Source of the DNA: an uncultured Bacteroidales bacterium
Lineage (GTDB): Bacteria; Bacteroidota; Bacteroidia; Bacteroidales; Bacteroidaceae
Length of the DNA stretch: 64,000 bases
Reading direction: 5' to 3'
Assembly (NCBI GenBank): GCA_902798425.1
Contig: CADBWR010000001.1
Span: 62,001 to 126,000 of the forward strand
Both the position numbers and the translations under genes were made by a program. The notes beneath the pieces were generated by a model. The model saw only the letters and a program-made list of their open reading frames with translations. It searched no databases and was not told the DNA's origin. Numbering within the stretch: position 1 is the first letter of the stretch; each line of letters begins with the position of its first letter. Positions 5,461-47,462 of the stretch are shown here, piece by piece.

Positions 5461-5622
5461 TTATGCTATTTCTTCGTCACTTAGGAACTCTTCTGTAGTG
5501 CCCGGCTCATTCCATATCAGGTCATTGCCTATTTGAGTGGGGGAGTTGCTGCCTGCCAGCAGAGACTGCTGACTATGCAAGTTGACAACCATAGCAAGAG
5601 GTGTTATATAGTGCTTCTTCAT
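5461..5622 (-). CDS. Small YxTP/LLAGS-type peptide (53 aa) coupled to GH81
   Basis: ATG at 5622 overlaps the TGA stop of the GH81 gene (ATGA at 5619-5622), a translational coupling arrangement. The product has 53 residues: a lysine-rich start with MKKHYITP, a hydrophobic MVV, then SLLAGS near residue 20-25 and an acidic tail (EEFLSDEEIA). It is one of three such peptides in the window (see 10574-10762 and 13981-14133) sharing MKK-x-Y-x-TP, a hydrophobic stretch and (L/M)LAGS. Each follows directly a large secreted protein with a C-terminal sorting tail. No signal peptide or known domain is apparent; the function is unknown. Conservation of the motif and of position argues that it is a real gene. 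Confidence 0.72.
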   Translation of the reverse strand: MKKHYITPLAMVVNLHSQQSLLAGSNSPTQIGNDLIWNEPGTTEEFLSDEEIA

Positions 5623-8600
5623 CTGATGACTACCTTTTTACCGTTTACAATATACAGTCCCTTCTTGGGTTGAGCAACTTTGCGACCCTGTAGATCGAAG
5701 AATACTGCTGCGGGAGCATTGTGTGCCATACTCTCCAAAGAGAGAAATTCTTCACTCTTCACTCTTAACTCTTCACCAATTGAGGTCGCTTCCTCGTCAT
5801 CGAAAGAGATGCCGCGAGTTAGCTGTTCTGCGGTAATGCCCGACAGATAGGCACGGAAGGCACCCACTGTCGTCCCACTGTTGCTGAGCCATGCCAAAGT
5901 GCCATCGCTGCGGAAGGCAGCATATCCCTCAACACCTGTTACGTGGAACTGCTGGAAGTTGCCTACCAACTTGACATTGTCTGCTGTGGTAGAGCGCTCA
6001 TTGACGCTACGCGCCAGTTCGATGTTACCCATCATGCCGTTGATAGCCAGTTCGATAGGTGCTTCCGTAGTGTTGCGCAACAGATAGGGCTTGTAGGCTG
6101 TCAGTGTGCCATCCACCTTGTTGAATCTGATGTTGTCAGTGCTGACACTTGCCAGTTCGTAGACTACGATACCAGCAGGAACGGCCACTGTCCTTGGCAG
6201 GCAGATGGTGGCATAGCTGTCAGCGGCAATGGTGCGGCTAAAGGTCAGCGTCGCGTTGCGCCCGAAATTCATGGGCAGTACGGGATAGCCGTCTTCGAAG
6301 ATTACCTTGAAACCTGTGGACTTCATCGGTAGTATCCAGCCGCCGGCATTATATGCTAAATTGTGTGTGTTGGTCAGTTTGGCTATCTGTGATGAGGCTG
6401 CATTGTCGTCGCCTCCGTTACCATCGAGCAGGATGATGACATTAGGATTGTTGGGTGTCTCCAGCATTACCGGCGTGCTGTTGTTCAGCGCAATATGGCT
6501 GAGGTCAATGGCTGTCGTCGTCTTGGGCAGTGCGGCAACATCGTTCAGGAACTGTGCCACATTGCTGTCGTTCACCCCAGTGCCAAAGGTGGTAACAGTA
6601 GAAATGCCCTTCGAGTCTGGATCACTGACATAGATGCGGTCGCCAGTCTCTGTGTAGAAGTAGACATTGGCAATGAGTGCCGCATTGCTGCCAGCCTTGT
6701 AGTCGTTGAACGAGAAGAAGAGCCAGTTGACGGTCGTATTTGTAATAGGCAGGTCTATTGTGTTCCACTGTCCGCCAGTCAGTGCCTTGGCATACTCCTT
6801 ATTTCCTGGTTCACCCTCAATATGGATGCTGAAAAGAGGTGCATCGTTGATGGGGTAGACGTCAGCATGCAGCATGTTGGCACCCTCCAGGTCAATGTTG
6901 CCCAAGGCTCCAAAACCGCATGTTCCTAACTGCTTGACATAGATGGCACGGCAGTTGGGTGTCAGCAGAAACGATGAGCCGGTACGCTCTGAACCGCCAT
7001 TATACTGGAAATTCATAGGCGACTCTTCTTCACCGACAAAGACGGGAACCTTGTCGCTTAGTGTGGCAGGACCATTGGCGGCAGAGTTGATGACGAGAAT
7101 CTGTGCTTCGCTGTCAACACCGCCCATGTGGGCTGTCACTGCATACTGACCTGTCGCTGTTGGGGTGATGGTCTTGTCTGTGGCATTGATGGTGAGTGTG
7201 GCATCGCTGTCAAAGGTTGCCTCACCCTGGTAGGGCGCACCAAACTGGTCCTTGCCTTCTATGATGAATGCGGTAGGCTGGTCTTTTACCATAATGCCAG
7301 GAACCTCAAAAGTGACTGATGCCAGCTTCAGCGCTTCTTCTACAGGCAGCATTTTGACCGCAGTCATGCCGTCAACGGTGGCTTTCACTGTCACAATGCC
7401 ATATTCCGTTGGTGTAAAGTTGTTGTCGATGAAAGTTCCGTCATCGCTGCTCCAGGAGGCTGTTACAGCCTTTGCATTCTTGGCAAAGTCGTAGCCTTGA
7501 ATGGTGAGTGCAGCAGGCTGCCCTTGTTTCAGCACGTCGTTGGCACAAGTAATTTCTACACCCATCAGGTCGTTGTCTGCAGCAGAGGCAGAACGTCCGT
7601 AGACCTCTAGTTCATAGAGTGATGTGCCATATTGTGAGGCACGCTTGACGCCAACCAGTCGCACATAGCGTCCTTCATGGTCGTCCAGTGCCAGTTCTGT
7701 CCAGTCTTCGCGTTTGCCATTGCCGCTCTTGCTGTAGGTCACCTCACCATTCTCGGTGGCACGCAGTTCAATGCGATATTCTGACGCATAGCTGGCCTCC
7801 CATCTCACGCGCACCTGATAGATATGAGCATTCTCCCCCAGGTCTACCTGCAACCATTCTCCGTCATTGGTGGCACTGCTCCAACGGGTGTTCGTCTTAC
7901 CGTCGGTGGCATATTCTTTCAGGGTGCCGGCATTCTCGTAACTGCTTGCCGTACATGCCTTGCCCAGTGCCAAATTCTTCATTACCAGGCGTTCGCGCAG
8001 GTCAGGTTCACTATCATCAACAGGATAGACATAGTTGAAGGCTGCTGATGTGACTCCCTCCACTTTCAGTTGGCGGGCAGGTACTTCTAATACGGCAGCA
8101 TCAGAGAAGTGCACAGTAATCGGTGCGTCTGTGGGGTTATAGGCCACGTGTGTTGTGACGTCGCCTTTCTTATAGGTACGTGCTGTGGGGTAGTCGGCAG
8201 TCACATCCCACTGAATGTCGCCATAGGTGCGGTGCGAGTGGGTGACGAAGTAAGTAATGCCATTGGTTGAACTGCTCTTCATGGTTCCCCAGTTGTTTGT
8301 CCATCCCTCGTCGAAGATGGCTGCAGCGTCGTCGGGGTCGCTCCACTGACGATAGGCCAGTACCACGTTACCCCAGTCTGAGTCGCGCAGGTCAGCATCG
8401 CCTATGCCGCCCTGCCCGTCCCATCCTTTATGCTCTTTGATGCGCATCAGGTATTGGTAGTCCCAGTCTGCAAAGGCCTTGTCCTCACCCAGATAGTCAA
8501 GGGCAGGGGAGATGGGCATCCACTGTATGCCCTGCATGAAGACGGGGTCGCCGCCAAACCATGTCCACCAGCCCACACCATGGCTGGTCAGGTTGGAACT

Positions 8601-10544
8601 CCAGGGCTGTATATAGTCTATTACGTTATCTCTCTTGTGCACAAATTTCGAGTAGTCGATGTTGTACTCGTCCTTGTCCGTCGCATGGCTTGTATGGAAG
8701 TCGTTGTCGATGGTCTCGCCATGGCGGTCGAACCAGTACTCGGCAGTGGCACGGCTCTCGCTGACCCAGCCGAAGATGCCGGCGTCGCGCAACTCGTCGT
8801 CACCTAAGGCCACGCCCAGCAGATACATGCCGCCCCAGCCTTGCATAGACTCTGATGTAGACTCCTGTCCGTTGCCGGCGCCATCACCCATGCCGCCCGC
8901 ATAGCAGTGGCCAGCCCAGGGGTCCATCATGCGTAGGAAGCACGACCACGTGTCGCGTTTATAGTTGTTATAGTCACGTGCCACCAGCTTGATCATCTCG
9001 CCGTAGTTCTGTTTGAAGTCGTCATCGACGAGTGCCAGCATGGCTGCTGCCAATGTGAAGTAGCCATAGTGGAAGTGGTGGTCGTTATACGTATCGCTGT
9101 CATAGCTGGTGTTGTAGCCAATGAGTCCACCGTAGCGTGGGTCACGGGCAAAGAAGTATTCACTCTCACCGGGCGTGTAGGTCAGCCAGTTGATCAGTGA
9201 TTCCTTCAGTCTGTCGTGACACTGGCGGAACAGTTCCTCATTGCCCATCTCGCGTGCAAAGCTCATGTTCAGTGCCATCTGTGTCAGTCCCTTGCCACCC
9301 CAGTAGGTGTCTCCGCCAAAGGAGCCCGTCTGCGCATAGTGTGACAGCATCTGTAGCATGATGTCTGTGTTAAAGCCGTGCTCGCCAGCATCGGTGGGTA
9401 CGGGGTACCAAGGCAGCATTCCCGTAAACTTATAAGCTATGCTGACATCATTAGAGACAACGAGTCTGAGTCGTCCACGGGGTGTCAGATATTTATCCTC
9501 GCTGAAGTAGGTGAGGTCAGTCAGCGTGCCATTGGCCTTACCGCCACTGTTGCGACGGTAGTGGTGAGGTATGAAACCCTGCAGCACATTGCTGGTGGCA
9601 GCGCCTGTACGAAGGTCGGTAGCTGATACGCGCCAGCGAGTGGTCAGCGTACCATTGCTCTGTGTGTAGTTCCATGAAACCTGTGTGTCTGTCGGTTTTG
9701 AGTAGGCATAGGGTGCATAGCTCGTTAAGTCGCTATAGCGCTTCAGCAATGCTGTGACGACAAAGCCGTTGGCGCCCAACACCACGTTGGCCTGCCCATC
9801 GGTAAAGGTTACCGTGGTACTCTCAGGCAAGTAGACACCATAGAGGTCGCTGGTCTGGGCATTGCTGATGCTGACAACAAACTGCGACAGCGTCTGGCTG
9901 CCTGTCAGTGCGTTGCCTGCACCGTCCATGAAAGCCACGGACACAGCATCCCTCAGCAGGTTGTCGGCGCCATCGTTGTCTGTCTTCACGGCAGTGATGA
10001 CGGGATTGATACCCGTCATCTCTATCCATGTGAAGGGAACACCGTGAGCTAAAGTGGTTATCAGTCGCTGACTGCCACTTTCTTCAGAGAAGGTTACTGT
10101 CCAGTCGCTCCAGCTCTCGGCCATAGGGTGTGAGGCACTGAACGTGTCGCCACACTTCACCATGAGCTTCGACTGTGCCTTCATCTCCGTACCATTGTCC
10201 ACCCAGTATTTAGGATAATGTACGTCAATGCCGTACTTCATACCCTGCACATACTGAGGGTACGACCATAGGTGGCCTGTCACTTCTCTGGCTGACCGCT
10301 CGCGGTCAGCATTGATCAGGTCAGTCCACCAGTCGTTGGTAGGAATAGGACGGTCAGCAGCTTCACGTATATACAGCTTACGATACTGCATGTACTGACT
10401 TTGGTCACCGCTGTGGTCAGCGGTTCTTGACTTCGCCAGGGGGGCGTAGGCAGCATAGCTGCCCTTGCCTACCTGAACGATGTCCTGAGCCCAAAGTGAT
10501 AGCGCTGACAGCGCCGTCAGCATAGTTAACAGAACTCTTCTCAT
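5619..10544 (-). CDS. GH81 endo-beta-1,3-glucanase, multidomain, with sorting tail
   Basis: 1641 residues with a signal peptide (about 1-19, SLWAQ). The GH81 part spans about 60-835: PIPTNDWWTDLI (67-78), YNDHHFHYGYF with Asp488 (486-496), and GNGQESTSESM with Glu561 and Glu565, the conserved acidic cluster of the family active site. Next come an F5/8 type C (discoidin/CBM32-like) domain (about 855-985), two Ig-like domains (about 990-1070 and 1073-1153), a CBM-like beta-sandwich (about 1160-1300), further beta-rich sequence, and a tail (DLQGRKVAQPKKGLYIVNGKK) of the T9SS type. It should cleave insoluble or triple-helical beta-1,3-glucan at the cell surface. The linker before the tail contains 7-bp repeats (5744-5778). 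It lies 29 bp after a small peptide gene and overlaps another at its stop. Confidence 0.9.
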   Translation of the reverse strand: MRRVLLTMLTALSALSLWAQDIVQVGKGSYAAYAPLAKSRTADHSGDQSQYMQYRKLYIREAADRPIPTNDWWTDLINADRERSAREVTGHLWSYPQYVQGMKYGIDVHYPKYWVDNGTEMKAQSKLMVKCGDTFSASHPMAESWSDWTVTFSEESGSQRLITTLAHGVPFTWIEMTGINPVITAVKTDNDGADNLLRDAVSVAFMDGAGNALTGSQTLSQFVVSISNAQTSDLYGVYLPESTTVTFTDGQANVVLGANGFVVTALLKRYSDLTSYAPYAYSKPTDTQVSWNYTQSNGTLTTRWRVSATDLRTGAATSNVLQGFIPHHYRRNSGGKANGTLTDLTYFSEDKYLTPRGRLRLVVSNDVSIAYKFTGMLPWYPVPTDAGEHGFNTDIMLQMLSHYAQTGSFGGDTYWGGKGLTQMALNMSFAREMGNEELFRQCHDRLKESLINWLTYTPGESEYFFARDPRYGGLIGYNTSYDSDTYNDHHFHYGYFTLAAAMLALVDDDFKQNYGEMIKLVARDYNNYKRDTWSCFLRMMDPWAGHCYAGGMGDGAGNGQESTSESMQGWGGMYLLGVALGDDELRDAGIFGWVSESRATAEYWFDRHGETIDNDFHTSHATDKDEYNIDYSKFVHKRDNVIDYIQPWSSNLTSHGVGWWTWFGGDPVFMQGIQWMPISPALDYLGEDKAFADWDYQYLMRIKEHKGWDGQGGIGDADLRDSDWGNVVLAYRQWSDPDDAAAIFDEGWTNNWGTMKSSSTNGITYFVTHSHRTYGDIQWDVTADYPTARTYKKGDVTTHVAYNPTDAPITVHFSDAAVLEVPARQLKVEGVTSAAFNYVYPVDDSEPDLRERLVMKNLALGKACTASSYENAGTLKEYATDGKTNTRWSSATNDGEWLQVDLGENAHIYQVRVRWEASYASEYRIELRATENGEVTYSKSGNGKREDWTELALDDHEGRYVRLVGVKRASQYGTSLYELEVYGRSASAADNDLMGVEITCANDVLKQGQPAALTIQGYDFAKNAKAVTASWSSDDGTFIDNNFTPTEYGIVTVKATVDGMTAVKMLPVEEALKLASVTFEVPGIMVKDQPTAFIIEGKDQFGAPYQGEATFDSDATLTINATDKTITPTATGQYAVTAHMGGVDSEAQILVINSAANGPATLSDKVPVFVGEEESPMNFQYNGGSERTGSSFLLTPNCRAIYVKQLGTCGFGALGNIDLEGANMLHADVYPINDAPLFSIHIEGEPGNKEYAKALTGGQWNTIDLPITNTTVNWLFFSFNDYKAGSNAALIANVYFYTETGDRIYVSDPDSKGISTVTTFGTGVNDSNVAQFLNDVAALPKTTTAIDLSHIALNNSTPVMLETPNNPNVIILLDGNGGDDNAASSQIAKLTNTHNLAYNAGGWILPMKSTGFKVIFEDGYPVLPMNFGRNATLTFSRTIAADSYATICLPRTVAVPAGIVVYELASVSTDNIRFNKVDGTLTAYKPYLLRNTTEAPIELAINGMMGNIELARSVNERSTTADNVKLVGNFQQFHVTGVEGYAAFRSDGTLAWLSNSGTTVGAFRAYLSGITAEQLTRGISFDDEEATSIGEELRVKSEEFLSLESMAHNAPAAVFFDLQGRKVAQPKKGLYIVNGKKVVIR
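5744..5778. repeat. Degenerate 7-bp tandem repeat inside GH81 linker
   Basis: On the plus strand the heptamers GAAATTC, TTCACTC, TTCACTC, TTAACTC, TTCACCA follow each other in register. They encode the EELRVKSEE-like linker just before the sorting tail of the GH81 protein. The same order of units recurs at 14360-14387. Because the unit is not a multiple of three, gain or loss of one copy would shift the frame of the tail. Confidence 0.7.
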
Positions 10545-10573
10545 CTAATACACTAACTAACTTATACTAACAA

Positions 10574-10762
10574 CTATTCGAAATCACTTAAATTGAAATT
10601 TTCTAATTCGAAGTTCTCATCACGAGCGTCAGCCCAACCAGTGCTTGTCTCGCCATCAATGTCCTGGATAAACTCATTCAGGTCACTGCCTGCCAGCAGA
10701 CTGACGTGAGAGACTATCTTTACCACCTCTATGTCGGGTGTCATATATTTCTTTTTCATCAT
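10574..10762 (-). CDS. Small YxTP/LLAGS-type peptide (62 aa)
   Basis: 62 residues starting MMKKKYMTPDIEVV, with SLLAGSD at about 21-27 and a strongly acidic C-terminal half ending NLSDFE. It begins 5 bp after the stop of the 989-residue secreted protein and ends 29 bp before the GH81 gene, so it is embedded in the operon. The Y-x-TP-x-(I/M)-EVVKI segment is nearly the same as in the peptide at 13981-14133, while the C-terminal part differs entirely. No signal peptide or metal-binding motif is seen. The leader-like constant part and variable acidic part resemble a precursor peptide, but no maturation enzymes are encoded in the window. Function unknown. Confidence 0.78.
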   Translation of the reverse strand: MMKKKYMTPDIEVVKIVSHVSLLAGSDLNEFIQDIDGETSTGWADARDENFELENFNLSDFE

Positions 10763-10767
10763 TCTTC

Positions 10768-13737
10768 TTATTTAATTACTACTTTTTTGCCGTTTACAAC
10801 ATACAGACCCTTCTGAGGCTGAGAAACCTTACGACCGTCGAGCGTGTAGTATTCATTCTTCTCGCTCTTTGACGAAATAGTGAGGTTGCTAATTCCCGTA
10901 ACATCTCCATCATCGAAGAATGCGCGAGCCTCAGTACCTGTCAGACCAGTGAAGTACACGCGGAAGGCACCAATCTTAGCGCCGGCGTTAAACTTCTTCA
11001 GCTTGCCGTCCTGAAGCGCATACTCTGCACCGGTAGCCTCAATGGCACGGGCTGTTCTGTGCATAATAATACCTGAAGTGGCAATGTCTGTACCAGCAGG
11101 ATTAGCCGTCAGGTTCAAGTCGCCCTTGGTATTGTTAGAAGCAATGACTACAGGAGCATCTGTGGTGTTGTGCAGAATGACGGGATCGTTAGCTCCCAGT
11201 GCCTGGCTGACTTGCTTGGTAAATGTAACACCACCTGTCGTAGCGGCGGTAGCCTTGTAGACCGTCACGCCATCAGGAATGGTAACAGTAGCAGGTGAGT
11301 TATAGCTTACCCAGGCATTGGCAGCAATGGTGCGGGTGTAGGCGAAGCCATCCTGCTGAGCGTCAATGATGAAGTCGTATGCCGGCTGAGCGTCGTTGTC
11401 GTCAACGATGTTGATGGCGGTAGCTGCGCGATAGTAAGGAGACTCATAGACAACCAGGTTGTTGGCTGTTACGTGAGCACCGCTCTCGTTAGGAGTACGG
11501 CCAGTACCGCCTACAACGACTACAGCATTCTGGTTGGCTGGCGTAATGGTGATATCCTCCGTGATGGTTGCTCCCTTCAGGTCAATGACGGCAGCGTTTG
11601 CTGCTGCTGTCTGCAGTGTCGTAATGTCAGCAGCGGTCACAGGACCCGTAATGACGGCCTTGTTTCCAGTGACCATTACATCCATTTCATCCTCAGCAGG
11701 CTTTGACAGATAGAAGTGATCCAGATAGAACTCTGTCTCATCGTCAAGAGCAACGAGAATGTAATTGTTTGTAAAGGTAACGGGCACCTCTACGTAGTTC
11801 CACTGGCCAGGAGTCAGTCCGCTGAATGTTGCACCAGTGTTGTAAAGGTTGTCAGAGAAGATGCGACCAGCGGTAGCGGTCTTTGGATAGATGGCAACAT
11901 GTGCCTTTGTAAAACCAGTTGCTGCGGCTGCACCAGCGGTACGGCTGTTAAAACCCTTACCAACAATGTGAATCATCTTATGCTCAGAGATGGTAATCTC
12001 CTCACAGGTGGTGTACAGTGGATTGGGAGCACCGCCGCCAACACCCCATCCGGGATTGCTGTCGTTGATACCCTTGCTATAGGTCGCACTATAAATAGCC
12101 AGCACGTTGGCTGCATCAGCGGTAGGAGCCGTAGCAATGGTGGCAGGAATAAACTGGTCTGTAGTGGTGAAGTTTACGTTCAGTCCGGTAGCAGACTCGT
12201 TGCCTGCCTTGTCAGTAGCTTTTACGGTCAGGGTGTATTCCGTCAACTTGGTCAGACCCGTAATCTCTACAGTAGCATCTTCGCCAGGCATTCCAGCGTT
12301 GGAAGCAACCTCTGTAGTGCCATTATATACCTTATAGGTTAAGAGTCCTGTGGCGTTGTCTGTAGCACTGACAGTCAGCACGGCAGAAGTGGCATCAATT
12401 GTTGTAGCCACAGCTTTTGTCATCACGGGAGCCTCCGTGTCCTCAGTAGCCTCCTCCGTTACGAGATATACATTACCAATGATAAAGGCATTTCCGTTAC
12501 CGTTTACAAAACCATCTGTAGCACCCTTTCCACCTTTGGCTGCGATACTACCAACATATTTCACCTGGAAGAACTTAGTCATAGAGACGCCGTCCGTACC
12601 GATAATCTTGTCCATCGTGATGTCCAGTGAGTTCCACTCGCCAACAGCCAGGGTAAACTCAGTACCTTTCTCTACCTCGCCAGTATTGATGGGGACAATG
12701 GTCAGCTTGCCTGCTGTCAGTCCGTAGACGTCCAGATGCAACTTGGTGGTAGCTGAAACGTTCATGCTGGTAAACTGAGAACCATAATAGGTGAAGTCGG
12801 ACATCATAAAGGCATTCTTGCCGTTAATCACCACGCCTTCGCCCTTCGTCGCAGCCCCCCAGTTGTCCCATCCATAGGCAGGAGCACTCTCGTCGCTGGT
12901 GTAAATCTTGGTTATAGTACCCGTAGTGGAAATAGCAGGAACATCTGCAGGGGCAGCGCATACGGTGATGTCGACAGTAGCCTCCTTGCCACCAACTGTA
13001 GCACTGATAGTCGTCGTACCTGCTGCCAGAGCGGTAAATACCCCATCAGCAACAGTACCTACGGCAGGAACAGAACTCTCCCACGTAATAGCGCCAGCAT
13101 CCATCGCATTGCCCATTTGGTCTTTGGCAGCGGCGGTAAGGGTAGCGGTCTGACCTGGTATACGTGTCTTCTTGTCTGCTGTCAGGGTGAGCGTTGTCAG
13201 GACGGGCACATAATTGCTATAGGCCACAAATGTGCGAATCTTCACACCCCAGGCATAGTTGGTGGCAGTTGTCGGCACAAAAACAATATAGCGGCCGCTA
13301 TTGCTCACATTCACTACAGCACTCTTTGAAGCCTCTTGGGCATTGTTGAACTCGGCAATCTTGGTCTCGCCAGTCAGCGTACCGTCTACGGCAGGTTCTG
13401 TATTTGTTACATAAATGTTAGCACCACAGTCAGCGCCTTCCCATGTGGAAGCGATGCTACCGATAGACTTCGCTTCGCCAAGGTCAATATAGAATCCTTG
13501 GATGCCCAGTGTCTTGTTGTACTCCACATTCGTGCCGTTCTCAGGAAAGAGGTATACGTTGCTCGTGTTGTTGCTCTGCGTAATCTTCTGCAGACCCGCT
13601 TCTGTCACTGACCCCTCAGGCAGGAACGCCTTCAGTCCTCCCAGAGGTACCACTGTTTTACCTGTTGTTAGGTCGTCTTGTGCCATCGTACCAATCGTAG
13701 CGATTAACGCACAAATGAGTAAAAGTGTTTTTTTCAT
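10768..13737 (-). CDS. Secreted multidomain carbohydrate-binding-like protein with sorting tail (989 aa)
   Basis: Signal peptide about 1-19 (GTMAQ). Segments in order: an F5/8-like discoidin domain (about 25-175, with GFYIDLGEAKSIG), a Big_2-type Ig-like domain (about 180-260), a CBM-like beta-sandwich (about 270-430, TKLHLDVYGL and GEWNSLDI), a fibronectin type III domain (about 435-530, TEYTLTVKATDKAGN), a second CBM-like sandwich (about 545-685, GQWNYVEVPV), beta-rich sequence, and a tail with LDGRKVSQPQKGLYVVNGKK. No glycosidase motif was found. It is the first gene of the large operon reading toward the left edge and has its own promoter at 13778-13810. Inferred role: a surface-displayed glucan-binding protein that assists GH81. 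Repeated Ig/CBM modules could also serve adhesion. Confidence 0.8.
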   Translation of the reverse strand: MKKTLLLICALIATIGTMAQDDLTTGKTVVPLGGLKAFLPEGSVTEAGLQKITQSNNTSNVYLFPENGTNVEYNKTLGIQGFYIDLGEAKSIGSIASTWEGADCGANIYVTNTEPAVDGTLTGETKIAEFNNAQEASKSAVVNVSNSGRYIVFVPTTATNYAWGVKIRTFVAYSNYVPVLTTLTLTADKKTRIPGQTATLTAAAKDQMGNAMDAGAITWESSVPAVGTVADGVFTALAAGTTTISATVGGKEATVDITVCAAPADVPAISTTGTITKIYTSDESAPAYGWDNWGAATKGEGVVINGKNAFMMSDFTYYGSQFTSMNVSATTKLHLDVYGLTAGKLTIVPINTGEVEKGTEFTLAVGEWNSLDITMDKIIGTDGVSMTKFFQVKYVGSIAAKGGKGATDGFVNGNGNAFIIGNVYLVTEEATEDTEAPVMTKAVATTIDATSAVLTVSATDNATGLLTYKVYNGTTEVASNAGMPGEDATVEITGLTKLTEYTLTVKATDKAGNESATGLNVNFTTTDQFIPATIATAPTADAANVLAIYSATYSKGINDSNPGWGVGGGAPNPLYTTCEEITISEHKMIHIVGKGFNSRTAGAAAATGFTKAHVAIYPKTATAGRIFSDNLYNTGATFSGLTPGQWNYVEVPVTFTNNYILVALDDETEFYLDHFYLSKPAEDEMDVMVTGNKAVITGPVTAADITTLQTAAANAAVIDLKGATITEDITITPANQNAVVVVGGTGRTPNESGAHVTANNLVVYESPYYRAATAINIVDDNDAQPAYDFIIDAQQDGFAYTRTIAANAWVSYNSPATVTIPDGVTVYKATAATTGGVTFTKQVSQALGANDPVILHNTTDAPVVIASNNTKGDLNLTANPAGTDIATSGIIMHRTARAIEATGAEYALQDGKLKKFNAGAKIGAFRVYFTGLTGTEARAFFDDGDVTGISNLTISSKSEKNEYYTLDGRKVSQPQKGLYVVNGKKVVIK

Positions 13738-13777
13738 AATTTTGTTGGTTAGATGTAACGTGTTATTTTTGGTGCTG

Positions 13778-13810
13778 CAAAGTTAGGGAATAATACGCCT
13801 ATATACCAAA
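13778..13810 (-). promoter_or_regulatory. Promoter of the 989-aa/GH81/GH3 operon
   Basis: Reading the minus strand, TTTG (13807-13810), a 21-nt spacer and TAACTTTG (13778-13785) match the Bacteroidetes -33/-7 form. The start of transcription would be near 13771, giving a leader of about 34 nt. The shared operator lies directly upstream at 13817-13834. Confidence 0.75.
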
Positions 13811-13816
13811 TTCTGC

Positions 13817-13834
13817 ACCTCACAAAAACCTCAC
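13817..13834 (-). promoter_or_regulatory. Shared operator copy A: two ACCTCAC words, 11-bp period
   Basis: On the plus strand ACCTCAC occurs at 13817-13823 and 13828-13834, separated by AAAA and followed by TTTT. This is the most regular of four copies (others at 16732, 25097 and 33005), each just upstream of the -33 box of a glucan-locus promoter. The inner word begins 43 bp from the upstream edge of the -7 box. A further ACCTCAC occurs at 13882-13888. Probable binding site for the LuxR-type regulator encoded at 33194. Confidence 0.68.
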
Positions 13835-13903
13835 TTTTATTGCAAAAATCACCGATTCTACCGCATCTTTGCTACTTCACCACCTCACTACGCTGCAGTG
13901 GTA

Positions 13904-13945
13904 TAAAAAAGAGCCGCTCCTTTTCGCTAAAAGGCCGCGGCTCTT
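13904..13945 (-). terminator. Rho-independent terminator after the 50-aa peptide gene
   Basis: AAGAGCCGC and GCGGCTCTT form a strong stem (13909-13917 with 13937-13945), with an inner CCTTTT/AAAAGG pairing. On the minus strand it is followed by a run of six T (13905-13910 complement). It ends the unit that starts at 16651. Confidence 0.8.
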
Positions 13946-13980
13946 ACCAAATTAACTAACTAACTACTAATATATAGATT

Positions 13981-14133
13981 CTACTCTTCGTCGTAATAGT
14001 AATCGCGGGAAGCTGCACCACCAACATTTTGATAGCCATCTCCGAATCCGATACTTTGTGTTGAGCCTGCCAGCATACTGGCGGTTTGGATCTTTACCAC
14101 TTCCATCTGTGGTGTCTTATATGTCTTTTTCAT
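13981..14133 (-). CDS. Small YxTP/LLAGS-type peptide (50 aa)
   Basis: ATG at 14133, TAG at 13981-13983; 50 residues beginning MKKTYKTPQMEVVKI, with SMLAGS at about 19-24 and a tail rich in Gly, Tyr and acidic residues (RDYYYDEE). It is the third member of the family after those at 10574 and 5461. It follows the 798-residue tailed protein but is separated from it by 121 bp that contain an inverted-repeat element (14151-14261), which probably inserted between two originally adjacent genes. A terminator follows at 13904-13945. No function is known; it is too short to show a fold. Confidence 0.76.
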   Translation of the reverse strand: MKKTYKTPQMEVVKIQTASMLAGSTQSIGFGDGYQNVGGAASRDYYYDEE

Positions 14134-14150: not shown

Positions 14151-14261
14151 CCCCCTAAGTTAGGGGGATGGGGGTCTGAACAAGCGGTTATCAGACCTAA
14201 ATTATCTATTCGCCAAGGAGTCTGCGCCTGTTCAGACCCCTGTCGTCCCCTAACTTAGGGG
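14151..14261. repeat. 111-bp inverted-repeat (MITE/REP-like) element
   Basis: The left arm (14151-14182) and right arm (14229-14261) are near-perfect inverted copies of about 32 bp. Each contains an inner palindrome CCCCTAA-N-TTAGGGG and the word GGGGTCTGAACA or its complement. The 46-bp centre holds no reading frame. The right arm overlaps the 3' end of the 798-residue gene, supplying its last two codons and stop. It encodes nothing itself and would need a transposase in trans. On either strand it would fold into a long hairpin. Confidence 0.72.
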
Positions 14262-16651
14262 ACTAACACCTTCTTGCCATTCACGATATACAGGCCCTTC
14301 TGAGGTTGAGCAACCTTGCGACCTTGCAGATCGAAGACCCCTGCTGCGGGAACAGATTTTTCACTCTTCACTCTTAACTCTTCACTGATTGAGGTTACCT
14401 CCTCATCGTCGAATACGATATTGAGAGAGCGAGCGCCAGCAGGTGCAGTGTCTAAGTGCAGATAAGCCTTACCAGCAGCCAAAGCACCTTCGTTAGCACG
14501 ATAGAACAAACCATCAGTATAAAGGATATAGTCGTATCTTGATGTGCCACCAATTACTGTTGTTCCATCGCCAGCACGGAGAAGGTTCCCTGCAGGAGCA
14601 GATGCCGTAGTTACAACAGGAACGTTGTACGTGGTGCCAGCAGTGCCAATCAGCAGCAGTGGTGTGCCTGCAGGGACAGGATCCTCCACCTTTGTCATGG
14701 TAACATTGGCGGCATTTGCTGCTGTAGCAACATAAGCTTTCAGACCGTCAACAGCACTGAAGTCAAGAGCTGAAGTGGTTACATAAGTGGTTTTGTTGTA
14801 AGCGGGAGTGATGGATGCATATTCTACCCACTCCATATTCTCATTAAAATAGCTTCCTTCACAGAAGTTCACCTCACCTGGCATCGTTACATAGAGAGGT
14901 GTATACAAAGACGGTTTCGTTGTAGAAGATGCGGTTATTATCATTGTCTTCTTGTCACCACTTAAACTTAGGTTTGTGCGCATATCCGAACCACCTGAGC
15001 TTAAGGTCCAGAAAGAACCACCTAAACCAGACAAATCATCGTCAGAAGTGATAATTACCTGCCAGTTGTCCTCAGCCAAATTAACGAAATGTTTTCCCTG
15101 AATGAGAATAGTATGTCCACCAGCAGTCAACTCCAAGCCTGCGGGAGCTGGAACAACTGTCAAATTAATTGTATTTGAAATAGCGGGGTCACTTCCCTTA
15201 ACAGTTGCAGTAATAGTAACGTCACCTTCAGCCACACCAGTAACAACACCATCAACACTGACTGAAGCCTTCGTATCGTCGCTACTTACGAAGGTGATAT
15301 CACTGGGATCAAGTGTGTTGTTTCCTTGGTTCTTTACTGTCAGCTGGAGAGTCTTGCCAACAGCAACTGTTGCAGCAGGAGCAGTTACTGTGATAGAAGT
15401 CGTAGGAACAACGGGAATCTCGTTTTCAAAATATACATTGTCAATCAGCACGTCACGCGATTTGTCGGTATTATTTTCTCCCACAAAAATATCCACCCAT
15501 CGATTACCATCTTGAGCCATTGTAAGACCTGCTAAGTCAATTGCAACATGTTTCCATGCACCAGCAGTTGTAGTGAATGACATATTGTTGATATTAGTCT
15601 TTTCTATCATCACATGTCCTGTTGTTACAGCGGTAGTATAAATATCAAAATGTAACTTTGTGTATTGGGTTAAATCTGCATCAGGATAAGGGAATCCATA
15701 TGTTCCTACATTGTGAATGCGTACGCAGTTATTACCATTGATGGGTATGATATCTTTAGCTGCATATCCCCACTGATAACCAGTTCCCCAGCCGTCATAA
15801 TTATTTGCGCTATAAGTGTCACTATAAATAGCAAGAACGTCAGCGGCATTTGCTGTTGGAGCATCTGGATTAGTTCCTATCATATAGACAGGTGTTGTTA
15901 CAGATGTTCCACCACTGGTGGCCTTCAAAGTATATGTACCTGCACCCGATGCAGCACCAAATGTTAAATTCATACCATCAATTACTGCCCCTACAGGTGC
16001 ATTTCCTTCCCAAGAAAGAGTTACAGCACCCGCAAAGTCATCACCATCGACGTCAGATACGGTAGCAGAGATACCTCCAAAACCCTGTGTTGCACTCCAA
16101 ATACAATATGGCAATGTAATGCTGCCTAAGGTTTGATCTTTGTAGGCAAATATCTCAAACTCTGACATCTGAGAACCATAAAAATTGGCAGTTTCATCCG
16201 GAATATATGCAACATAACGATATGTAGCCCCGTACGCACCAACATATGACTTGTATCGGGTAGCTTCACTCAAAGCACCAACTTCATTGAAGTTTCCAAT
16301 CTCATTTCCAGGAGCCTCCAGCGTGGGAACCGTATTGCTAGCATAAATCTTATAGTTGGTACAATGCTTGCCTGTCCAGTAAATCTTCACAAAACCCAGT
16401 TTCTTAGCTTCACCGAGGTCAAAATAAAAACCGTCGTTCTTGTTATCATAATAGATATTCAGGTTGACACTGGCATCTTCTGACGATGACTTCACACCGT
16501 TTACAAGCAGGCCACGCTCTGCATCCGTGTACACATGATTAGAGCGTTGCAGCATGATTGGCAAATTCCCGCTGGTCAACATATTGTCAGCACCCCACGC
16601 CATCCCTAGCGAAGCGACAATTGCACATAAAAGTAAAATTGTTTTTTTCAT
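14255..16651 (-). CDS. Secreted multidomain carbohydrate-binding-like protein with altered sorting tail (798 aa)
   Basis: Signal peptide about 1-20 (GMAWGAD). A discoidin-like domain (about 30-170, GFYFDLGEAKKLGFVKIYW) is followed by an Ig-like segment, a CBM-like beta-sandwich (about 265-412, TKLHFDIYTT, GAWKHVAIDL, VLIDNVYF), a Big_2 domain (about 415-505), another beta-rich domain, and a tail with FDLQGRKVAQPQKGLYIVNGKKVLVP. Relatives in the window end in VVIR or VVIK; here the final VP and the stop come from the inverted-repeat element at 14151-14261. The architecture is close to that of the 989-residue protein, so the two are probably paralogues serving as surface glucan-binding proteins. 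It has its own promoter (16694-16725) and operator. No catalytic motif was seen. Confidence 0.8.
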   Translation of the reverse strand: MKKTILLLCAIVASLGMAWGADNMLTSGNLPIMLQRSNHVYTDAERGLLVNGVKSSSEDASVNLNIYYDNKNDGFYFDLGEAKKLGFVKIYWTGKHCTNYKIYASNTVPTLEAPGNEIGNFNEVGALSEATRYKSYVGAYGATYRYVAYIPDETANFYGSQMSEFEIFAYKDQTLGSITLPYCIWSATQGFGGISATVSDVDGDDFAGAVTLSWEGNAPVGAVIDGMNLTFGAASGAGTYTLKATSGGTSVTTPVYMIGTNPDAPTANAADVLAIYSDTYSANNYDGWGTGYQWGYAAKDIIPINGNNCVRIHNVGTYGFPYPDADLTQYTKLHFDIYTTAVTTGHVMIEKTNINNMSFTTTAGAWKHVAIDLAGLTMAQDGNRWVDIFVGENNTDKSRDVLIDNVYFENEIPVVPTTSITVTAPAATVAVGKTLQLTVKNQGNNTLDPSDITFVSSDDTKASVSVDGVVTGVAEGDVTITATVKGSDPAISNTINLTVVPAPAGLELTAGGHTILIQGKHFVNLAEDNWQVIITSDDDLSGLGGSFWTLSSGGSDMRTNLSLSGDKKTMIITASSTTKPSLYTPLYVTMPGEVNFCEGSYFNENMEWVEYASITPAYNKTTYVTTSALDFSAVDGLKAYVATAANAANVTMTKVEDPVPAGTPLLLIGTAGTTYNVPVVTTASAPAGNLLRAGDGTTVIGGTSRYDYILYTDGLFYRANEGALAAGKAYLHLDTAPAGARSLNIVFDDEEVTSISEELRVKSEKSVPAAGVFDLQGRKVAQPQKGLYIVNGKKVLVP
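14360..14387. repeat. 7-bp tandem repeat in the linker of the 798-aa protein
   Basis: Plus-strand heptamers TTCACTC, TTCACTC, TTAACTC, TTCACTG in register, the same order as in the GH81 gene at 5751-5778. They encode the EELRVKSEK linker before the sorting tail. Confidence 0.7.
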
Positions 16652-36484: not shown

Positions 36485-36516
36485 TTTGCATAATTCAACA
36501 ATTCATCCTAATTTTG
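36485..36516 (+). promoter_or_regulatory. Promoter of the fimbria-type operon
   Basis: TTTG (36485-36488), 20 nt, TAATTTTG (36509-36516): full consensus. The leader to ATG 36592 is about 70 nt. No ACCTCAC element, so it is outside the glucan regulon. Confidence 0.78.
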
Positions 36517-36591
36517 CAAATATTAATAGTTGACGCTGCCATAAAGCTCGACAAAACGCGACTAAAGTTAAAAAACCACAACTTAAAACTC

Positions 36592-38106
36592 ATGAAAAAG
36601 TGTGCGTCATATAGCTCTATTTTTCGGTACGATAATTATCGTGCTCAAAGATGCTGTGGATTGTTGCTTTTGCTCATGAGTTTTGCGTTGCAAGTGATGG
36701 CCCAACAGTCTGTTCCTGTCACAAGCCGCATCAACAAAGATTATCCCTATATCTGGTTTGTGGAGAAAAGAGACTCCATCCGCTTGACGGACGAAGACTT
36801 CTTCAATAGCTGTGCCAAGGTGGTATTCCCCGTTAACAAGTTTGATTTACCCAAGAACGATAAGATACTCAATGAGTTAGATCAAATTGTACTGCCCCGT
36901 GTCAATCAGGACAGCTTGAGTCTGGTGGGTATCGTCATTCGTGGTGCAGCCTCTCCTGAAGGCCCCTACTCGTTCAACAAGATGCTGAGTGAGAAGCGTG
37001 GCAAGGCACTGTCTGATTTCGTAAAGCAGCGCATCTCGTTCAGCGACTTCCGCAATGCTACCATCAAACGACTCAGCGAAGACTATGTCACTGAGGATTA
37101 CCGTTCGCTGTGTATTGCTATGAAGCAGGCCGGTGACCCGAACTACAACTACGTAAAGGATCTCTGCGACTACTATCTGGGCAAGAACGACGAAAAAAGA
37201 TTGAAGCAGGCGCTGATGAAAGTTCAGCAAGGACGCCTCTGGAAACACTTGCTGAAGACCTACTTCCCTGAGTTGCGTGCTGCTCGCTTTATGCTGTTCT
37301 TCCGTCAGTTGCCTCAGGTGACACTTGACCCACAGATTCTCCGGGAGACTATACTTCCCCCAATGCAGCAGCCCGAATTACCTGTTCCTATGCTGTCTGC
37401 ACTGCCCCGTGAGGAGTTCTTGCTGCGTAAGAAAATGCTGTCTGTGAAGACCAACCTGCTGCTCTATGGCGCCTATATTCCTGGCTACGACCGTTGGGCT
37501 CCGATACCCAACGTGGCGATAGAGTACTATCCGCTGGGCGGTCACTTTACCTTCGGTGCTTCGTTTGACATGCCTTGGTGGCAGGACTATAATGCCCACA
37601 AGTATTTCCAGTTCCGAAACTATCAAGTGGAGGCACGCTGGTATGCCCGTGGGGCCAAGAAGAGCGACCCCGCCCGAATATATAACAAAAAAGCCTACAC
37701 GGGCTTCTACTTACAAGGCTATGCCCACTTGGCGGTCTTTGGAATCTGCTTCGATGAAAATCGCGGTTGGGTAGGCGAGGGTGCCGGTGCCGGAGTAGGT
37801 GCCGGCTATGTGCTTCCTATCAGTAAGAGTGGCCGCTGGAAGTTGGAGGTCGGCGCACAGTTAGGCTTCTTCCGCTGTAAGTACGACCCCTACCAGTTCG
37901 AGAATCCTGTGAATCTCGCCTATCGTGACGGACTCTACTACTATAAGTGGACACAGAAGCCCGAACTGTTTAAGAAGCGTCAGTATCGTTGGAACTGGAT
38001 AGGTCCGACGCGCATAGGAGTAACCTTGAGCTACGACCTGCTGTATCGTCGCATACAGAAGAAGGGCGTCAGCCTGAAGAGCACAGAAAGGAGGGTAGAG
38101 CCATGA
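36592..38106 (+). CDS. OmpA-like/DUF3575 fimbrial accessory protein
   Basis: Start at ATG 36592, 504 residues; upstream in-frame codons contain the promoter. Signal peptide with a long n-region (cleavage near QVMAQQ). An OmpA-like periplasmic domain is visible (about 60-150: VVFPVNKFDLPKND, IVIRGAASPEGPYSFN, LSEKRGKALSDF), and the C-terminal half is a DUF3575 outer-membrane beta-barrel (LSVKTNLLLYGAYIPG, PNVAIEYYPLGGHFTFG). DUF3575 genes open many Bacteroidales fimbrillin loci. The probable role is an outer-membrane accessory factor linked to peptidoglycan during fimbria assembly. Its stop overlaps the start of the DUF5119 gene (ATGA at 38103-38106). Confidence 0.83.
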   Translation: MKKCASYSSIFRYDNYRAQRCCGLLLLLMSFALQVMAQQSVPVTSRINKDYPYIWFVEKRDSIRLTDEDFFNSCAKVVFPVNKFDLPKNDKILNELDQIVLPRVNQDSLSLVGIVIRGAASPEGPYSFNKMLSEKRGKALSDFVKQRISFSDFRNATIKRLSEDYVTEDYRSLCIAMKQAGDPNYNYVKDLCDYYLGKNDEKRLKQALMKVQQGRLWKHLLKTYFPELRAARFMLFFRQLPQVTLDPQILRETILPPMQQPELPVPMLSALPREEFLLRKKMLSVKTNLLLYGAYIPGYDRWAPIPNVAIEYYPLGGHFTFGASFDMPWWQDYNAHKYFQFRNYQVEARWYARGAKKSDPARIYNKKAYTGFYLQGYAHLAVFGICFDENRGWVGEGAGAGVGAGYVLPISKSGRWKLEVGAQLGFFRCKYDPYQFENPVNLAYRDGLYYYKWTQKPELFKKRQYRWNWIGPTRIGVTLSYDLLYRRIQKKGVSLKSTERRVEP

Positions 38107-39251
38107 AGAAGTTACCCGTCATTCTGATGTTTATTCTGCTGGGCTTTGTCGGTTGTACACCCGAACCGCCTCTGCACCTCTACGACGAGGCTGCCGTGGA
38201 CTTTGATATGCCCGTTATTGACCTCTCTCTCGAAGTCTATTGGGACTACGAGATGACCTATGACGTGAAGTACGAGTGGGAGGCTGAATGGTACTATGGC
38301 TGGGATGAAATCGACACGGACATCTTCGGTGAGTTAGGCTATACAGAACCCAGCGTGTTCAATCTGCGCCGCTACTTTACAGGAGAAACACCCTATGCCC
38401 CGCATACCTCGGTACAGAACGATGTCATTTACGGCACCAACTTCCAGGGACGTTATAATTGGGGCTTCTGGGATATGCTGATATGGAACGATGTCAAGAC
38501 CCTTGATGGTGTGCAGAGCCTTGTCTTCGATGAGACATCGTCATTGGACTATGTCACGGCCTATACCAACCAGACCATGCAACAGTCACGCTATCAGGCA
38601 CCCCGCTATACGCGGTCGTTCTACTCTCCAGAGCCACTATTTACGGGCTATACGCAAGGTGTCGAGATCGATCCCACACTGAAGAACTTCGAGTACGACC
38701 CCGAGCGCAAAGTCTATGTAAGACGACTGAATATGGTGTTGGAACCTGTCACCTACATCTATCTGACACAGGTCATCCTGCACCACAACAACGGACGCGT
38801 CACCTCTACCGATGGCTCGTCGAACCTCTCGGGAATGGCCCGCTCAGTGGTGCTCAATACGGGAGTAGCAGGCTCTGATGCTATTACGGTCTATTATAAT
38901 ACGCGCATGAAGAAAGATTGCAAGAAGGATGAGGAACTTGTCGACATCATTGGCGGTCGTCTGATGACTTTCGGCATCTGCAACCTGAATGCCAACCGCG
39001 TCTCCCGCGGTGTAGACATCAAGGATGGCAAGCGCCACTATATGGACTGCACTATGCAGTTTAACAATGGTATGGACTCTACCTTCGTCTTCGACGTCAC
39101 CGACCAGGTGCGCAAACTCTATAAGGGTGGCGTTATCACGGTGGAACTTGATATGGACACCGTCCCGATTCCTCAGCGTTCCGGAGGCTCCGGTTTCAAT
39201 GCGGTAGTGAAGGACACAGAAGATGGTGGAACCTACGAATTTGATATGTAA
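38103..39251 (+). CDS. DUF5119 fimbrial-locus lipoprotein
   Basis: ATG at 38103 inside the preceding stop; 382 residues. The lipobox is LGFVGC (lipid Cys at 18). The acidic and Tyr/Trp-rich N-terminal part (VYWDYEMTYDVKYEWEAEW) and FTGETPYAPH are characteristic of DUF5119 proteins, which accompany DUF3575 and fimbrillins. A beta-rich C-terminal region (TFVFDVTDQVRKLYKGG) resembles Mfa2/FimB-type anchors. Likely outer-membrane anchor or assembly factor; the exact role is unknown. Confidence 0.78.
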   Translation: MKKLPVILMFILLGFVGCTPEPPLHLYDEAAVDFDMPVIDLSLEVYWDYEMTYDVKYEWEAEWYYGWDEIDTDIFGELGYTEPSVFNLRRYFTGETPYAPHTSVQNDVIYGTNFQGRYNWGFWDMLIWNDVKTLDGVQSLVFDETSSLDYVTAYTNQTMQQSRYQAPRYTRSFYSPEPLFTGYTQGVEIDPTLKNFEYDPERKVYVRRLNMVLEPVTYIYLTQVILHHNNGRVTSTDGSSNLSGMARSVVLNTGVAGSDAITVYYNTRMKKDCKKDEELVDIIGGRLMTFGICNLNANRVSRGVDIKDGKRHYMDCTMQFNNGMDSTFVFDVTDQVRKLYKGGVITVELDMDTVPIPQRSGGSGFNAVVKDTEDGGTYEFDM

Positions 39252-47440: not shown

Positions 47441-47462
47441 CAATTGAGAATTGACGATATGA
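47435..47462 (+). repeat. 7-bp tandem repeat before the giant protein gene
   Basis: AATTGAC, AATTGAG, AATTGAC, GATATGA in register, filling most of the 18-bp gap between fimbrillin 5 and the giant gene and reaching into its ATG. Copy changes would alter the spacing of the start region. Confidence 0.65.

Follow-up and report, generated by a model that had tools for sequence, protein, structure and literature searches.

Linear polyphosphorylated peptides (LPPs) are ribosomally synthesized and post-translationally modified peptides (RiPPs) which a 2026 report presents as a patchily distributed family restricted to the Bacillota, with an unknown role and an unidentified final product (PMC13381572). 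As laid out in that report for the system of Paenibacillus alginolyticus (LppA/B/K/S/D/N), a kinase phosphorylates Ser3 of the core, and a RiPP recognition element (RRE) presents the leader to a protease. The YxxP motif is bound by the RRE in lasso peptide and LPP systems alike, the full LPP leader consensus reads YxxPxVLxHQxIxFETxxS, and the phosphorylated Ser of LppA lies at Y+18 by the paper's own numbering (PMC13381572). Here we examine three small peptide genes in a 64,000-nucleotide stretch of DNA (the window) from an uncultured Bacteroidales bacterium of the family Bacteroidaceae (assembly GCA_902798425.1, contig CADBWR010000001.1, positions 62,001 to 126,000). We show by sequence comparison that they belong to a family with recurrent gene neighbours, that a candidate maturation machinery is encoded in the same genomes and in places shares operons or loci with the peptides, and that its predicted binding and catalytic residues are conserved. 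In our reading, to which we give a probability of roughly 0.7, the three peptides are LPP-like RiPP precursors that a single locus elsewhere in the genome matures in trans, and each is co-expressed with a surface protein.

The three genes lie on the minus strand at 13981..14133 (peptide 1, 50 aa), 10574..10762 (peptide 2, 62 aa, with a second ATG at 10759) and 5461..5622 (peptide 3, 53 aa), and each is predicted to encode a RiPP precursor. An initial annotation of the window had reported three open reading frames (ORFs) of these lengths carrying MKKxYxTP...LLAGS, each downstream of a large tailed protein (798, 989 and 1641 aa) and one of them joined to it by an ATGA overlap; the ORFs are real, their coordinates and reading frames agree, and the arrangement is correct. 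Aligned with one another, the peptides have M-K-K-x-Y-x-T-P, V-V and (L/M)LAGS in common, followed by an acidic half, and no Pfam or NCBIfam family passes its cut-off for them. They are not a product of chance, because a profile built from the three sequences finds 19 places in the genome from which the window comes (the source genome); with a 68-sequence profile the number of copies rises to 20, and each of the three peptides has homologues by profile search. Matches occur in 38 of 40 genomes of the genus, the source genome included, and in 107 of 151 genomes of the family, distributed over 16 of 22 genera and with as many as 24 precursor matches in one genome. Under even sampling of the order, 6 of 148 genomes match (source genome included, E<=0.001), and two matching genomes of the order outside the family hold 17 and 4 copies. 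Named relatives with a peptide are Sphingobacterium faecale, an uncultured Prevotella sp. and metagenome-assembled genomes of Bacteroidaceae and Bacteroidales (taxon names inferred). The peptides are under purifying selection, with a dN/dS of ~0.27 across 21 close, non-independent homologous pairs.

Family-wide properties were counted in 183 distinct peptides, a non-random set composed of the best-scoring loci of several searches and of hand-picked places, including four loci of the named relatives, 60 places picked among the matches listed for the genus and 8 picked regions. The consensus is YxxPxxxVVxLxxxxxLLAGS, in which Tyr and Pro are near-invariant, position P+2 is hydrophobic in 152/182 peptides, and a Ser falls at Y+17 to Y+21 in 177/182, compared with 34% expected. 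By analogy with the LPP report (PMC13381572), and from conservation, this near-invariant Ser is the predicted kinase target and LL|AGS the predicted cut site. In the window, the candidate target residues are Ser24 of peptide 1 (codon 14062..14064, minus strand; Y+19), Ser26 of peptide 2 (10685..10687, minus strand; Y+20) and Ser25 of peptide 3 (5548..5550, minus strand; Y+20). The second halves, earlier said to differ completely, are acidic in 127/129 peptides that follow a tail gene and in 23/24 that precede a lipoprotein-like gene, and an aromatic-then-acidic arrangement near the end recurs in about three quarters of them when a loose pattern is applied. The more general description of a processed peptide family with a constant leader-like half and a variable half is borne out on inferential grounds. 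When 68 of the peptides were compared with NCBIfam, the models matched by more than one of them were lasso precursor families alone, with weak scores (4 members at a best E of 0.12 and 2 at a best E of 0.0066).

Genes for PqqD/RRE proteins are present in 141 of the 151 family genomes. The source genome encodes a PqqD protein of 89 aa (C12:76560-76829). Its operon also codes for a kinase (HprK-like), a protease (signal peptidase-like) and an ABC exporter for which MsbA models are among the best matches, under cut-off. Across 20 PqqD loci, 6 of which were chosen for a nearby peptide, an HprK-like gene was found in 19, a signal peptidase-like gene in 14, an NTP transferase gene in 9 and an ABC gene in 7. 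The protease carries conserved GxSM, HRI and GD signatures, which by analogy with LppS would be its catalytic residues, and the kinase a P-loop, SGTGKST. Compared with structures in the PDB, an RRE profile of 17 rows retrieves as its best matches RREs that bind the leaders of lasso peptides and LPPs, namely TfuB1 (8.7e-10), TbiB1 (7.6e-7), PbaB1 (1.3e-4) and LppB (0.003), and the RRE of the source genome as a single sequence retrieves nothing at E<=1. The LppB residues Asn33, Tyr60 and Asp70, which hold the Tyr and Pro of the leader, align with N35, Y64 and D74 of the source-genome RRE (numbering read off the printed alignment), and across the 17 rows neither Y64 nor D74 varies, with N35 conserved in at least 90%. 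Directly beside the operon, and sharing its strand, are GlsB and GlsA, genes for the synthesis of glycine lipids (L257:8645-10493, contig C12 of the source genome).

Peptides and machinery meet in several lineages. At locus L260 the gene order is peptide, lipoprotein-like gene, kinase, PqqD, NTP transferase; at L046 it is tail protein, peptide, NTP transferase, kinase; at L116, from another family, it is peptide, kinase, protease; and at L107 a peptide and a lipoprotein-like gene are divergent from kinase, protease, PqqD and ABC genes. A precursor inside the cluster, as in LPPs, is thus a feature of L260, L116 and L046, unlike the source genome, whose PqqD cluster contains 0 precursors with 20 elsewhere in the genome; in the 14.5 kb around that operon the peptide profile found no other YxxP candidates. 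L046, L107 and L116 emerged from screening the collected peptide loci for machinery genes, which few of them held: PqqD was found in 1 locus, the kinase in 3, the protease in 2 and the NTP transferase in 1. In eight genomes that have peptides and lack SprA, a component of the type IX secretion system (T9SS), a listed PqqD gene is found no more than 10 kb away from 6 of the 16 peptides, where 0.15 would be expected (distances determined by hand). Presence of the two is also associated, modestly, over the 151 genomes (both 104, peptide only 3, PqqD only 37, neither 7; p 0.007).

The link with sorting-tail proteins is real: the family-wide profile search with recording of the neighbouring gene that the initial annotation had proposed, which could have failed, did find it. 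A tail gene precedes the peptide in 129 of the 183 cases (111 by the tail profile alone, 9 with an alternative tail and 9 with a tail gene before and a lipoprotein-like gene after), compared with 4 of 173 non-adjacent complete ORFs of the same loci. Among the remaining peptides, 24 only precede a lipoprotein-like gene, for which the background is 16/173, 29 have neither neighbour by our rules and 1 lies at an edge; the 29 were not re-sorted, and by eye they include weak tails (L012, L112, L114, L117, L128) and a lipoprotein-like gene (L220). Fisher's test, with phylogeny ignored, gives p = 6e-47 for the association with tails and, when the remaining peptides are considered, p = 4e-8 for that with lipoproteins. 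In the source genome, 17 of 20 copies stand just behind a tail protein, the tails at L005 (alternative) and L012 (weak) being judged by eye; the exceptions are a copy on C34 before a lipoprotein-like gene, a copy on C13 located elsewhere and an 18-aa fragment on C62. Seen from the other side, the same genome has 64 tails at E<=0.01, and a peptide is known to follow 16 of these, a count that leaves out the tails C3:10508, C25:25110, C38:2807 and C3:85184 and that includes a 21st peptide (L188), which was found by looking behind tails and lies outside the 17 of 20. The pairing is therefore strong when one starts from the peptides (129/183) and partial when one starts from the tails (16/64).

Peptides largely coincide with SprA over the 151 genomes (both 98, peptide only 9, SprA only 14, neither 30). 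One of the genomes with no SprA match, G193, has 20 peptide matches with the usual tail neighbours. The other eight, which we call T9SS-lacking on the strength of having no SprA match, hold 16 peptides, of which 0 are behind a tail, 12 directly precede a lipoprotein-like gene and 4 do neither; the peptide is therefore not a part of the T9SS, and a role strictly confined to that system was dropped as an explanation. What both contexts share is a surface protein. Among ten proteins encoded downstream of the peptide in lipoprotein contexts, Pfam detected no fimbrillin family at 1e-3, and the terms "lipoprotein" and "fimbrillin-like" are accordingly our inference from a lipobox pattern and general appearance.

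The closest described counterparts of the tails are the short C-terminal domains (CTDs) of T9SS cargo in Prevotella intermedia, which display a T(G/S)I cleavage-like site, a motif B Gly, GxY (motif D) and a basic end (motif E) (PMC11969387). All three partner proteins of the window carry these motifs in tails of similar length, ~45-56 aa, and SprA is encoded in the source genome (2583.7 bits), this being the sole T9SS component searched; a difference is that the passages of PMC11969387 on cargo do not mention a peptide partner gene. The partner of peptide 1 is a 798-aa Big_2 protein (14255..16651, minus strand), whose short CTD-like tail (14255..14398, minus strand) comprises 47 aa from VTSI and contains FDLQGRKV, KGLYI and NGKK, motifs like those in PMC11969387; the partner of peptide 2 is a 989-aa protein with a borderline Big_2 and a weak fn3 match in Pfam (10768..13737, minus strand) and a short CTD-like tail of 44 aa from VTGI (10768..10902, minus strand); and that of peptide 3 is a 1641-aa protein with GH81 and F5/8 type C domains in Pfam (5619..10544, minus strand) and a short CTD-like tail of 56 aa from ATSI (5619..5789, minus strand). 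TSI takes the place of TGI in two of the three tails. The 1641-aa protein ends in ...KGLYIVNGKKVVIR, the 989-aa protein in ...KGLYVVNGKKVVIK and the 798-aa protein in ...KGLYIVNGKKVLVP, KGLY(I/V)VNGKKV.. being the ending common to all. General sorting-domain families gave no match for the three proteins (Pfam E<=0.1, NCBIfam E<=1), and the assignment of their tails to the short CTDs therefore follows from the motifs. Ten further partners in the source genome, with proteins cut at 1.5 kb, yielded a Pfam domain (LRR_5) in 1. At L005/L021, L023, L051, L065, L066, L069 and L073 the peptide follows an alternative tail (..KNGKLYIGNFNVAGQQVK / NGVKYNVAGAKLY), whose motifs resemble the usual ones with their order exchanged.

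Spacing between the tail genes and their peptides varies, from the 4-nt overlap of the 1641-aa gene with peptide 3 (ATGA) to gaps of 5 nt behind the 989-aa gene and 121 nt behind the 798-aa gene. Most of the last gap is occupied by nested inverted repeats at 14152-14261 (15 nt perfect; 16 nt at 94%), possibly a small repeat element. An identical 24-mer, GAAGAGTTAAGAGTGAAGAGTGAA, occurs at 5751-5774 and 14360-14383, in frame (EELRVKSE) in two otherwise different tail genes and just before the conserved tail motifs, with 0 expected from 100 shuffles; it has the look of a repeat that was inserted or of a 3' end that was shuffled.

On the LPP-like reading, a tail protein and its peptide would be made from one operon, as gene spacing suggests. 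The following steps are modelled on the Bacillota LPP work: a single stand-alone RRE, the PqqD protein encoded on contig C12, would bind the leader MKKxYxxPx[hydrophobic]..VVxL through its Tyr and Pro; the near-invariant Ser in LLAGS would be phosphorylated by the HprK-like kinase encoded beside the RRE; a cut at the predicted LL|AGS site, made by the archaeal-type signal peptidase-like protease, would remove the leader; and the acidic core, of ~25-40 residues, would leave the cell by the neighbouring ABC exporter. Once outside, the core may act with the co-expressed surface protein, mostly T9SS cargo and otherwise a lipoprotein.

Likeness to the LPPs, as described in PMC13381572, extends to the peptide (a YxxP leader whose Pro is followed by a hydrophobic residue, a single conserved Ser ~18-20 residues on and a variable core) and to the enzymes (a discrete RRE, an HprK-like kinase, an archaeal-type signal peptidase-like protease, an MsbA-like exporter, often an NTP transferase, and no lasso B2). 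The differences are equally plain. LPPs belong to Bacillota and the window family to Bacteroidota; LPP clusters hold 1-3 precursors, whereas here there are many per genome, away from the cluster of the source genome; LPP clusters are often in capsule loci, and the precursors here have T9SS cargo or lipoproteins as neighbours; and the leader ends in LLAGS rather than FETxxS. Differences of this size, in phylum, precursor number and scatter, partner genes and C-terminal end of the leader, are the reason why we call the system LPP-like and not a member of the LPPs. A term search of the LPP report returned neither Bacteroid* nor Prevotella, and in our literature search, where that report was the sole match among the text covered, neither such a family in Bacteroidota nor the scattered layout beside T9SS cargo was described. 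The remark of the initial annotation that it knew of no characterised family with this layout is partly outdated, since leader motif and enzyme set match those of the Bacillota LPP RiPPs (PMC13381572).

A number of observations weigh against this interpretation. The full LPP leader consensus does not recur here, HQ and FET, and with the latter the LPP leader end, being absent from the family consensus. In the source genome the kinase reaches 19.7 of 33.3 bits for PF07475 and the protease 24.8 of 51.85 for TIGR02228, both under the curated cut-offs, and the NTP transferase is outside the operon, with three PF14907 matches in the genome. In the 20 PqqD loci no protease was found in 6 and no ABC gene in 13, and one of the 7 ABC matches is non-adjacent. 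The lasso protein TfuB1 outscores LppB in the RRE profile search. All but a handful of the scanned peptide loci are without machinery genes, 44 of the 151 family genomes have no peptide match, 37 of the 141 genomes with PqqD have no peptide match, and 3 of the 107 with peptides have no PqqD match. Finally, the two contexts, tail protein and lipoprotein, are not unified by any known function.

One alternative is that the resemblance of the YxxP motif is convergent, with the PqqD-kinase-protease operon modifying other peptides and the small proteins serving an unrelated cytosolic or regulatory role. The distance between the peptides of the source genome and its PqqD locus, the rarity of machinery genes at peptide loci and the sub-threshold homology of kinase and protease all suit such a view, which we nonetheless consider unlikely, given the operons and loci shared in several lineages (L046, L107, L116, L260), co-localisation far above expectation (6/16), conservation of the RRE residues that hold YxxP and the lack of another YxxP candidate by the peptide profile within the 14.5 kb around the operon. 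A somewhat less likely account is closer to the initial annotation, which had suggested that the peptides might be partners in the export of the adjacent protein. Translated from the same mRNA as its neighbour, the peptide would act as an escort or chaperone, its acidic half binding the basic C-terminal tail and aiding T9SS export. Close adjacency with start and stop codons that overlap in places, the acidic C-terminal half in 127/129 and the co-occurrence with SprA are what such an escort would look like. It fits poorly with a peptide known behind only 16/64 tails of the source genome, with the T9SS-lacking genomes, where 12/16 peptides precede lipoprotein-like genes and 0 follow a tail, and with an acidic half that is the same in lipoprotein contexts (23/24), and it leaves unexplained the YxxP motif, the conserved Ser and the loci shared with RRE and kinase; the export proposal is thus not supported.

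Three further possibilities appear much more remote. Lasso peptide precursors would have the same leader recognition with macrolactam formation in addition, and the paeninodin type in particular resembles the present system in its [Y/W]xxP leader, discrete PqqD RRE, HprK-like kinase and NTP transferase; the peptides also match lasso precursor families weakly, and the PqqD proteins match lasso_PqqD models under cut-offs. That they are lasso precursors is nevertheless very improbable: the leader peptidase B2 (PF13471) is over cut-off in 2/151 genomes and reaches E<=0.001 in 8/151, with none in the source genome, where a signal peptidase-like protease is found instead; the leader has Tyr, not Trp; and no cyclase was found among the scanned genes of the operon, a search that was not genome-wide. 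Lasso processing by way of B2, largely contradicted by the missing protease, was dropped. Untranslated or attenuator-like ORFs are a still less credible explanation: the ORFs are short and without a Pfam or NCBIfam family over cut-off, but their dN/dS in close pairs and their residues conserved across genera speak for a translated product, and the peptide is found on either side of the partner gene (3' and 5'). Least plausible of all, to the point of being negligible, is export of double-glycine leader peptides through an ABC transporter with a C39 peptidase. LLAGS bears a superficial likeness to a double-glycine site, PMC10352776 describes GG-motif precursors together with exporters of this kind in Bacteroidales, and bacteroidetocins, too, are small leader-plus-core peptides of Bacteroidetes. 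Here there is no consistent GG site, Gly preceding the Ser in only 71/172 peptides, and no C39 match in the source genome, which excludes C39 export there as far as the assembly is complete (92.8%); of the 107 peptide genomes, 66 have no C39 match, which makes the same route unlikely for them, and 15 of these hold at least 10 peptides.

If the peptides are indeed LPP-like precursors, an LPP-like system is widespread in one Bacteroidota family (RRE in 141/151 genomes, precursors in 107/151), with numerous, scattered precursors attached to identifiable partners, and because of those partners the role of phosphorylated RiPPs would become testable through T9SS cargo and surface lipoproteins. It would also point to what the conserved PqqD operon may do, and possibly to a new layer of surface display. 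Going further, we tentatively propose, at somewhat less than even odds, that in many Bacteroidota one RRE-kinase-protease-exporter locus makes a repertoire of phosphopeptides from scattered precursors, each in the operon of a surface protein (T9SS cargo or fimbrillin-like lipoprotein) as its modified companion, perhaps coupled to the surface polysaccharide that also anchors T9SS cargo.

The three peptide genes and their partners are surrounded by genes for polysaccharide use. From 1877 to 36136 the window encodes SusC, SusD, two GH16 proteins, GH81, GH3 and a Y_Y_Y protein, a region that constitutes a beta-glucan utilisation locus, presumably of laminarin type, with the Y_Y_Y protein as its probable regulator. 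From 36514 to 59341 there follows a run of genes on the plus strand, with DUF3575 (36514-38106), DUF5119 (37989-39251) and, at 47444-59341, a 3965-aa ORF without a Pfam match at 1e-5.

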